Below the pieces are notes generated by a model. The model did not search any database. It worked only from the letters and a program-made list of their open reading frames with translations, and was not told the origin of the DNA. A stretch of DNA of 64,000 nucleotides from an uncultured Pelagibacteraceae bacterium (GTDB lineage: Bacteria > Pseudomonadota > Alphaproteobacteria > Pelagibacterales > Pelagibacteraceae). Where the stretch lies: assembly GCA_902528645.1 (NCBI GenBank), contig CABZTG010000004.1, forward strand, positions 1 to 64,000. Direction: 5' to 3'. Shown here piece after piece: positions 7,025-17,135 of the stretch (the first letter of the stretch is position 1; the number at the start of each line of letters is the position of its first letter). The position numbers were made by a program, and so were the translations under genes.

Positions 7025-7029
7025 TTTTA

Positions 7030-7085
7030 CTCCTTTTTTAGTGCTTCTACTTTATGCAAGGCGCACAATATAGTTCAAATGCCTA
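7030..7085 (-). promoter_or_regulatory. SAM-V riboswitch aptamer overlapping the metY Shine-Dalgarno
   Basis: Minus strand TAGGC-ATTTGAACTATATTGTGC-GCCT-TGCATAAAGTAGAAGCACTAAAAAAGGAG. P1 is AGGC/GCCT, the pseudoknot is GTGC/GCAC, and the 3' end contains AAGGAG. Confidence 0.8.
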
Positions 7086-7101
7086 CCGATTTTATGAGAA
7101 T

Positions 7102-12923: not shown

Positions 12924-13199
12924 CTAAATAACTACCTTTTCGGATCTTAGTAATTTGAGCTTTTGCTTGATTCCACCTCTACCAGAGTAACCTCCAAGAG
13001 CTCCATCAGATCTAATCACTCTATGACAGGGTATTTTTGGGGCATATGGGTTTTTAGCACAAGCATTGGCTACAGCTCTGGCTGATTTAGGGCTGTTTAT
13101 TGCAGCAGCAACTTGTTTATATGTTCTTATTTTACCTTTTGGTATAGTTTTGAGGTATTTCCAGACTTTTAATTGAAATTTAGTGCCTTTAAGATGCAT
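12924..13199 (-). CDS. ogt: Short methylated-DNA-[protein]-cysteine S-methyltransferase, DNA-binding domain only
   Basis: GTKFQLKVWKYLKTIPKGKIRTYKQVA...PYAPKIPCHRVIRSDGALGGYSGG-type motif. Start placed at Met29 of the listed ORF (MHLKGTKFQ). Confidence 0.82.
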   Translation of the reverse strand: MHLKGTKFQLKVWKYLKTIPKGKIRTYKQVAAAINSPKSARAVANACAKNPYAPKIPCHRVIRSDGALGGYSGRGGIKQKLKLLRSEKVVI

Positions 13200-13207
13200 T
13201 TTTTTGT

Positions 13208-13387
13208 GAAACCCCTGTTTCCTTGCACTTTTAAGGGTGCAAAGAACAGTTGTTTTGGCACGTCGTTGATGCGCTACCGCCATGCCTCCCGTTCTGCATG
13301 TTCAGCGATGCTTTGCAGAACTTTCTGCCCCTTGGATTTGTACCTCTCGGCTTTTGCCCAATTGGCCAGTTAAGGGTTGCCCCTTAA
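13208..13387 (-). other. GC-rich hairpin cluster upstream of ogt (candidate structured leader, or relic)
   Basis: Perfect stems: GAAAC-CCCT-GTTTC (13208-13221), TTGCAC/GTGCAA (13223-13242), GTTCTGCA/TGCAGAAC (13291-13321), TTAAGGG-TTGC-CCCTTAA (13370-13387). GC of 13251-13380 is about 53% by hand count. Confidence 0.5.
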
Positions 13388-13482
13388 TTCACTTATACTT
13401 TAACAGATATGATTTTAAAGCTGTATCACCTTTTAATTGATTCTTAAAATTTACAGAAATTCCTGTGAATATTGGGGATAAA

Positions 13483-13659
13483 TTAAGCTTTGAAAACTAA
13501 GATAAAATAGCTGATTAAAAATAAGATTGCTAAGATAGATAAAAAAATAGTTTCAATGCTTTTGCCATGATTTTTATACTGAATTGAACTTAAAATAATA
13601 AATCCTACAGAGGTAATTAAAAACCATACAGCAGGAATTTCTCCATCAATTGAACCCAT
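13483..13659 (-). CDS. Small membrane protein, unknown
   Basis: MGSIDGEIPAVWFLITSVGFIILSS...FLSILAILFLISYFILVFKA; two predicted TM stretches; start chosen at the internal Met. Confidence 0.5.
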   Translation of the reverse strand: MGSIDGEIPAVWFLITSVGFIILSSIQYKNHGKSIETIFLSILAILFLISYFILVFKA

Positions 13660-13702
13660 AATTTTTATATTTAAACTATTGACATTAAAAATCACTTGAT
13701 AT

Positions 13703-13737
13703 ATTACTAGTGATAATTAATTGTTATCAATAGTAAT
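13703..13737. repeat. Lox/dif-like inverted repeat (14-bp arms, 7-bp spacer, one mismatch) next to the integrase start
   Basis: ATTACTAGTGATAA-TTAATTG-TTATCAATAGTAAT; ends 3 bp before the ATG at 13741. Confidence 0.75.
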
Positions 13738-13740
13738 TAT

Positions 13741-14694
13741 ATGAGTGAACTTACTACAGACCTTAAATCTCTTCACGAGGCAACATTGAATAACCTTAGA
13801 AGCTCTAAAGCAAAAAATACTTTAAGAGCTTACAAATCTGACTTTAAAGACTTTGGAGCTTTTTGTTCAAAACATGGTCTAAATTCATTGCCAACAGAAC
13901 CTAAAATAGTTTCCTTATACCTTACCCATCTCTCTAAAAAATCAAAAATTAGCACTTTAAGACGAAGATTAGTATCAATAAGTATGGTTCATAAGCTAAA
14001 AGGGCATTATTTAGACACTAAACATCCAATTATAGTCGAAAATTTAATGGGAATAAGAAGGGTCAAAGGAAGTATTCAAAAAGGAAAAAAACCATTATTA
14101 ATCAATCATTTAAAATTAATTATTAAAGCTATTAATGAAGAAAAAACTGAGCAAATTAAAAAACTGAGAGATAAATCAATTATATTAACTGGTTTTGGGG
14201 GTGGCTTTAGAAGATCGGAGCTTATTTCAATTGATTATGAAGATTTAGAATTTGTTCCAGAGGGTCTCAAAATAACTATTAAAAGATCAAAAACAGACCA
14301 ATTTGGTGAGGGAATGATTAAAGGACTACCCTACTTCAATAATGAAATATATTGTCCGGTTTCAAATCTAAAAAAATGGTTAGAAATTTCTAAAATTAAG
14401 TCTGGACCTATTTTTAGAAGATTTTCCAAAGGTTTATCATTAACAGATAAAAGGTTAACTGATCAATCTGTAGTTATATTAATGAAAGAGTATTTAAACT
14501 TAGCAGGTTTAGAAAATAAAAATTTTGCAGGTCATAGTTTAAGGTCAGGCTTTGCAACAGTAGCCGCTGAGTCTGGAGCGGATGAAAGAAGTATTATGGA
14601 AATGACAGGGCATAAAACAACACAAATGGTTAGAAGATACATAAGAGAAGCAAATATCTTTAAAAATAATGCTTTAAACAAGATTAAAATTTAA
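13741..14694 (+). CDS. Tyrosine recombinase / site-specific integrase
   Basis: N-terminal SAM-like core-binding domain; catalytic GGGFRRSEL, HSLRSGFATVAAE, GHKTTQMVRRYIRE. Confidence 0.9.
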   Translation: MSELTTDLKSLHEATLNNLRSSKAKNTLRAYKSDFKDFGAFCSKHGLNSLPTEPKIVSLYLTHLSKKSKISTLRRRLVSISMVHKLKGHYLDTKHPIIVENLMGIRRVKGSIQKGKKPLLINHLKLIIKAINEEKTEQIKKLRDKSIILTGFGGGFRRSELISIDYEDLEFVPEGLKITIKRSKTDQFGEGMIKGLPYFNNEIYCPVSNLKKWLEISKIKSGPIFRRFSKGLSLTDKRLTDQSVVILMKEYLNLAGLENKNFAGHSLRSGFATVAAESGADERSIMEMTGHKTTQMVRRYIREANIFKNNALNKIKI

Positions 14695-16806: not shown

Positions 16807-17055
16807 TTAAAATTTACTAATTAGATATTTTCTTTTTTTTTTATCATTTTTTAATCTATATTCATAAGACATAGCTGAGCTTTTATCATAAAATTTTTTT
16901 TTATAGATAATTCTCCATTTATATCCTCTAGTTGATTTTGCACCAGTCCCAGCATTATGTTTTTTAATTCTCGATAAAAGATTATTAGTATAGCCCACAT
17001 ATGTTTTCGGTATTTTGCTGTTTATGCTTTTTAGCATATAGACATAAAATATCAT
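16807..17055 (-). CDS. GIY-YIG nuclease domain protein
   Basis: FYVYMLKS...TYVGYTNNLLSRIKKHNAGTGAKSTRGYKWRIIYKK. Confidence 0.85.
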   Translation of the reverse strand: MIFYVYMLKSINSKIPKTYVGYTNNLLSRIKKHNAGTGAKSTRGYKWRIIYKKKFYDKSSAMSYEYRLKNDKKKRKYLISKF

Positions 17056-17060
17056 AAATA

Positions 17061-17135
17061 TGGCGGTCCCTAGGGGAATCGAACCCCTCTTTCGAGGATG
17101 AAAACCACGTGTCCTAACCGATAGACGAAGGGACC
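17061..17135 (-). tRNA. tRNA-Glu (anticodon TTC), CCA encoded
   Basis: Minus strand GGTCCCTTCGTCTATCGGTTAGGACACGTGGTTTTCATCCTCGAAAGAGGGGTTCGATTCCCCTAGGGACCGCCA. Confidence 0.95.

Follow-up and report, generated by a model that had tools for sequence, protein, structure and literature searches.

In Pelagibacteraceae (SAR11), the most abundant bacteria in the ocean, a 35-bp inverted repeat directly upstream of a tyrosine recombinase gene very probably serves as the dif site of the chromosome, in a Xer system that uses a single recombinase in place of the usual XerC/XerD pair. The repeat lies in a window of 64,000 nucleotides (the whole stretch of DNA analysed) from an uncultured member of this family. 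We read it as dif because of its single copy, its position at the replication terminus, the lone recombinase beside it, the presence of an FtsK gamma domain, the co-variation of its arms, its overlap with a promoter and the existence of similar dyads on plasmids.

The element, ATTACTAGTGATAA-TTAATTG-TTATCAATAGTAAT, occupies positions 13703-13737 of the forward strand and occurs once in the window, where shuffled sequences are expected to contain none. Its two 14-bp arms (13703-13716 and 13724-13737) differ by one mismatch and flank a 7-bp spacer (13717-13723), and the core GATAATTAATKGTTATC spans 13712-13728. Three bases (TAT) separate the repeat from the recombinase ATG at 13741. A sequence-only reading of the window had described this lox/dif-like geometry, including the distance to the start codon, and every part of that description holds.

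No other repeat in the window has 14-bp arms with at most one mismatch and a spacer of 4-10. The same criteria returned 0, 0, 0, 0, 0, 4, 0 and 1 repeats in eight random windows of like composition. A bare palindrome in DNA of 29% GC is only modestly unusual, near chance, and it is the conservation of the repeat rather than the dyad itself that sets it apart. Across 133 distinct loci of the window's site class (class I, described below), arms and spacer carry a mean of 1.86-1.94 of 2 bits of information per column, compared to 0.57 bits upstream of the site and 1.23 bits in the adjoining start of the gene. The spacer, at 1.90 bits, is conserved as strongly as the arms, and it is 7 bp long in every host site. 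Even the mismatch between the arms is conserved, with pair 7 being A/A in 107 of 155 loci, so the half-sites are consistently unlike outside the spacer too. In the loci with enough flank where it was sought, the site was found directly upstream of the recombinase, and within the family these loci come from seven genus codes.

The adjoining gene (13741..14694, forward strand) encodes a lone Cre/Xer-like tyrosine recombinase of 317 aa, the proposed Xer of SAR11. It matches PF00589 (71.7 bits) and PF02899, and its catalytic residues R157, K184, H265, R268, H291 and Y300 are invariant. In a profile comparison it aligned with Cre over the full length (positions 24-303; E about 1e-9). Scores against XerC (TIGR02224, 69.5 bits), XerD (TIGR02225, 75.7 bits) and XerS (NF003462, 43.9 bits) were all below the respective cut-offs of 335.15, 329.6 and 267. 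An AlphaFold model made from 13 close homologues had a pLDDT of 54 and was set aside.

A first sample of the genus had the recombinase in 28 of 37 genomes; a second, consisting almost entirely of genomes at least 85% complete, had it in 190 of 218. Roughly 9% of the genus genomes that are at least 90% complete had no match. Since all seven single-contig genomes of the genus carry the gene, one copy each, we attribute these absences to missing contigs. Exactly one PF00589 protein is encoded in eight of ten near-complete genomes, and the only conserved one is this recombinase. In G268 (1,308,759 bp), which has the length of P. ubique HTCC1062, the gene lies at 997,875-998,828 and the site reads ATTACTAACGATAATTAATGGTTATCAATAGTAAT. 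A few Pelagibacteraceae genomes contain additional phage-like integrases. Extra tyrosine recombinases in two complete genomes (G089:C1:676679-677146 and G267:C1:11153-11587, with G267 matched in two pieces) are probably phage integrases. The conserved recombinase itself appears to be chromosome-maintenance machinery kept across the family, not a mobile-element remnant, and "integrase" would be a misleading name for it.

The canonical dif, ATAATGTATATTATGTAAA, had no match within one mismatch in seven complete Pelagibacteraceae genomes, where hits with two to three mismatches were at background. In the sister family f2, two recombinases have PRK00283/XerD (330/316 bits) and XerC (318 bits) as their best NCBIfam models. 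Most f2 genomes tested also have a near-perfect canonical-looking dif, ATTCGTATAATATATATTATGTAAAAT, which resembles the alphaproteobacterial sites tabulated by Carnoy & Roten (PMC2731167). XerC/XerD with a canonical dif in f2 and a lone recombinase in Pelagibacteraceae suggest that the family swapped its system rather than lost it. P. ubique HTCC1062 has been said to lack dif/Xer (Carnoy & Roten 2009, PMC2731167), and in the literature joining Pelagibacter or SAR11 with dif/Xer we found nothing that revises this statement.

The position of the site was compared with the replication terminus using cumulative GC skew in the window and three genomes, two of which were covered by a 400-kb tile around the site. 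The skew maximum is at 14,650 in the window (site at 13,703) and at 615,774 in the whole genome of G012 (1,343,202 bp; site at 617,601). In the two tiles, it is at 918,460 in G061 (site at 919,971, 1.5 kb apart) and at 675,249 in G065 (site at 674,671, 0.6 kb apart). For G268, G089, G064 and G267, terminus position was derived from angles to parB, used as an origin-side marker, instead of from GC skew. In the seven single-contig genomes the site is 168.9-179.4 degrees from parB. The FtsK gamma domain is present across the genus. A search for KOPS-type skewed octamers in G012 found no such motif, only uninformative Shine-Dalgarno-like words. The system shares these features with single-recombinase Xer/dif systems: a lone intact recombinase without XerC/XerD, a single-copy site, a terminus position and FtsK gamma. 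The site itself, an intergenic, single-copy inverted repeat of low G+C, is of the form expected for such a dif, which has a length of about 28-35 bp and a centre of 6-11 bp.

The site also overlaps a predicted promoter. In the window, a -35 hexamer TTGACA, of fixed position and high information, is found at 13679..13684 (forward strand), and a -10 hexamer TATTAC, assigned from position and consensus, at 13702..13707 (forward strand), where it overlaps the left arm. In 157 of 171 loci, a TTGACA-like hexamer (at most one mismatch) keeps a constant distance of -33 to the core; 17 bp further on comes TATTAC in class I and often TATAAT in class II. The predicted transcription start falls inside the site, where a bound recombinase would be expected to block transcription, and autoregulation of the recombinase through this promoter is likely. 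The palindrome could be an operator only, with the recombinase or another regulator controlling the promoter and recombination taking place elsewhere or not at all. Two observations agree with this: almost every locus has the TTGACA-N17-TATTAC/TATAAT promoter overlapping the left arm, and the site ends a few bases short of the ATG. However, an operator explains neither a spacer as conserved as the arms, nor the terminus position, nor the absence of another Xer system, and the lone recombinase has no other candidate site known. We therefore consider a purely regulatory role very unlikely. The sequence-only reading had proposed a tyrosine recombinase core site that serves as the target of the integrase, as its operator, or as both; judged from the sequence it is both, and primarily a dif.

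That reading had also placed the site in a divergent region beside a small membrane gene. An ORF is indeed there on the reverse strand, listed at 13483-13695 from a GTG start that is doubtful; an in-frame ATG at 13659 is likelier (13483..13659). It belongs to no Pfam family. The sequence upstream of the promoter varies among relatives, so the site travels with the recombinase and not with this ORF, which lies outside the system. Further features were seen elsewhere in the window, all on the reverse strand. An IMES-2 marine RNA motif (Rfam RF02035, 143 bits) at 13255-13394, about 310 bp from the site, overlaps the beginning of an ORF at 12924-13283, which encodes an O6-methylguanine methyltransferase DNA-binding domain. 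A SAM-V riboswitch (RF01826) is located at 7027-7093, and a small GIY-YIG endonuclease ORF lies beside tRNA-Glu at 16807-17135.

In the complete genome of G012 the 35-mer occurs once, and the next best match has 10 mismatches. The core occurs once per genome, aside from a few one-mismatch matches at control level, and no second copy of the site was found in the window or in the genomes examined, including G012. A single copy fits dif, because it is the sister dif copies that recombine in a chromosome dimer; it speaks against an invertase, and equally against the att pair of an ordinary integrase. The sequence-only reading would have given up the site if it had no second copy anywhere, if spacer and arms were not conserved with the gene and if the protein did not bind it. 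The second copy is indeed missing from each genome; arms and spacer are conserved with the recombinase gene, so the proposal stands. Integrase-type Pfam and PHROG matches of the recombinase, and a site that adjoins the gene as in many att-int modules, could suggest an attB/attL remnant of an integrated phage or island that used this gene as its integrase. This is highly improbable, as every single-contig genome of the genus has the site, which also extends over seven genus codes of the family, each time in one copy and with no second att. This distribution refutes an active integrated element, whereas the dif reading itself includes an ancient domesticated one. A DNA invertase site or phase switch, to which a tyrosine recombinase and a palindrome at a promoter might point, can be dismissed almost entirely, since inversion needs two sites and copy number (one per genome) refutes it, while the orientation of the site to the gene is constant.

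Two classes of site were found in the family. Class I sites read ATTACTAnY-GATAA-N7-TTATC-NNTAGTAAT, with outer arms as in the window's site, and class II sites read TTCC-GATAA-N7-TTATC-GGAA; both arms change jointly between the classes. All 133 class I recombinases have an insert at aa 226-238 and Q242, whereas in all 22 class II recombinases the insert is deleted and residue 242 is K or R. On a recombinase tree made with the insert and 242 columns left out, the site class changes only once. Therefore, the co-variation of protein and site is one strong coincidence and not many. In the full-length profile alignment, K230 is opposite Cre K244 and Q242 is opposite Cre R259, both DNA-contacting residues in Cre. 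Members of genus code g10 (L369-L377, L392, L393) are scattered on the recombinase tree, and L394/L395 belong to g8. The site-plus-recombinase module may have moved from one SAR11 lineage to another; alternatively, the genus codes may not be clades.

When phage and plasmid collections were compared, the recombinase was closest to plasmid recombinases, with up to 44% identity (Alicyclobacillus, Paenibacillus), while phage matches reach about 30% identity at most. A GATAA-N6-TTATC dyad in which 11 of 13 arm positions pair lies upstream of two of the seven plasmid relatives examined (39% identity), 261 bp away on a Sporosarcina plasmid (L405) and 180 bp away on an Iodobacter plasmid (L407). Such dyads appeared in 0-1 of 3000 random-sequence trials. 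The two plasmids look like a family of recombinase-plus-site modules, and the Iodobacter recombinase gene adjoins parAB. Capture of a plasmid resolution module would be the simplest origin of the SAR11 system, in the direction that we infer.

Under the dif reading, two monomers of the adjacent recombinase would bind the two arms. When a crossover between sister chromosomes has produced a dimer, two dif copies would be synapsed near the terminus, probably under the control of FtsK at division. Strand exchange across the 7-bp spacer, at presumed cleavage positions, would then yield monomers. With a site spanning its own promoter from the -10 to the start codon, bound recombinase would also repress its own synthesis. 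A plasmid-type Cre-like resolution module of site and gene probably replaced XerC/XerD-dif in the ancestor of the family.

Cre, which resolves plasmid dimers, and the loxP site of phage-plasmid P1 resemble the SAR11 system in full-length homology, a single recombinase and an inverted-repeat site. However, loxP is 13-8-13 and the SAR11 site 14-7-14, and the latter is chromosomal, at the terminus and universal in the family. XerC/XerD-dif shares the proposed job and FtsK gamma, and the GATAA/TTATC inner arms recall the ATAA/TTAT of dif; the remaining arm sequence is unrelated, the spacer is 7 and not 6, and SAR11 has one recombinase, scoring 70-76 bits where 330-335 are needed. XerS/difSL of Streptococcus and Lactococcus likewise combines one recombinase with a site adjoining its gene near the terminus (PMC5357621, PMC2731167), but XerS has 356 aa and a 31-bp site with an 11-bp centre. 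XerH/difH of Campylobacterota also has one recombinase with a linked site at a GC-skew peak and relatives that use XerCD. XerH is longer (354-362 aa), its match is weak (phmmer E 4e-4) and the difH arms quoted in PMC5357621 are unlike those of SAR11. XerL/dif of Legionellales is also a single-recombinase system that homology searches had missed, with long inverted-repeat arms free of interruptions and a dif at the skew maximum (PMC9765430). By its published description, XerL differs in being longer (catalytic Y387/Y389), and in L. pneumophila its gene is more than 400 kb from dif. The kind of system is thus already known (XerS, XerH, XerL, XerA); the lineage, the promoter-embedded site, the two specificities and the phage mimics are new as far as the literature found shows.

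These mimics came from a search of HTCC1062-type and consensus sites against 50,697 phage records (E ≤ 0.01), which hit only three pelagiphages, HTVC100P, HTVC035P and Greip EXVC021P, all of the HTVC010P type (PMC10504331). Their sites (MT375525.1 22465-22499, reverse strand; MW273924.1 34319-34352; MW273923.1 35829-35863) are all intergenic, at the junction adjoining terL. The arms have 1-2 mismatches, compared to 6 for the best site in random 35-kb sequence, and the spacers of 6, 7 and 6 bp are unlike the host spacer. In HTVC100P and HTVC035P (MW273924.1, MW273923.1), a class II-like dyad and a class I-like one stand in tandem with about 30 bp between them, as if suiting hosts of both specificities. 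Weaker GATAA-N6/7-TTATC dyads occupy the same spot in HTVC204P, HTVC024P, HTVC203P, Lederberg and HTVC034P. No clear site was found in HTVC010P itself, and no integrase was detectable in the three phages.

Like IMEX, elements that use the Xer system of their host to integrate, these pelagiphages have a host-dif-like site without an integrase; integration at the host dif, the other mark of IMEX, was not seen, with no prophage found at dif. HTVC100P TerL was present in one of 399 genomes, as two inverted copies on one contig with no dif junction. Without a dif-junction prophage, stable lysogeny finds no support. Greip was classed as lytic for want of lysogeny genes, while the infection dynamics of most isolates suggested lysogeny or chronic infection (PMC8163748); temperate infection was excluded in PMC11066056. 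We tentatively propose, as a possibility somewhat short of even, that HTVC010P-type pelagiphages (Ubiqueviridae), a type that has been called strictly lytic, may carry a working dif and borrow the host recombinase for multimer resolution or for integrase-free entry at dif. Of these two uses, multimer resolution is favoured, because the spacers differ and prophages are absent.

SAR11 has served as an example of genome streamlining severe enough to do away with the resolution of chromosome dimers (Carnoy & Roten 2009, PMC2731167). Our analysis suggests that the lineage kept the function by handing it to a single Cre-like enzyme whose target lies in its own promoter, and that the whole arrangement costs about 1 kb. 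The SAR11 terminus would gain a sequence marker, and the two site classes would offer two naturally occurring recombinase specificities that are linked to a short insert in the protein. The system would also make it possible to test directly whether the dimer-resolution enzyme of the host is used by some of the commonest phages in the ocean.
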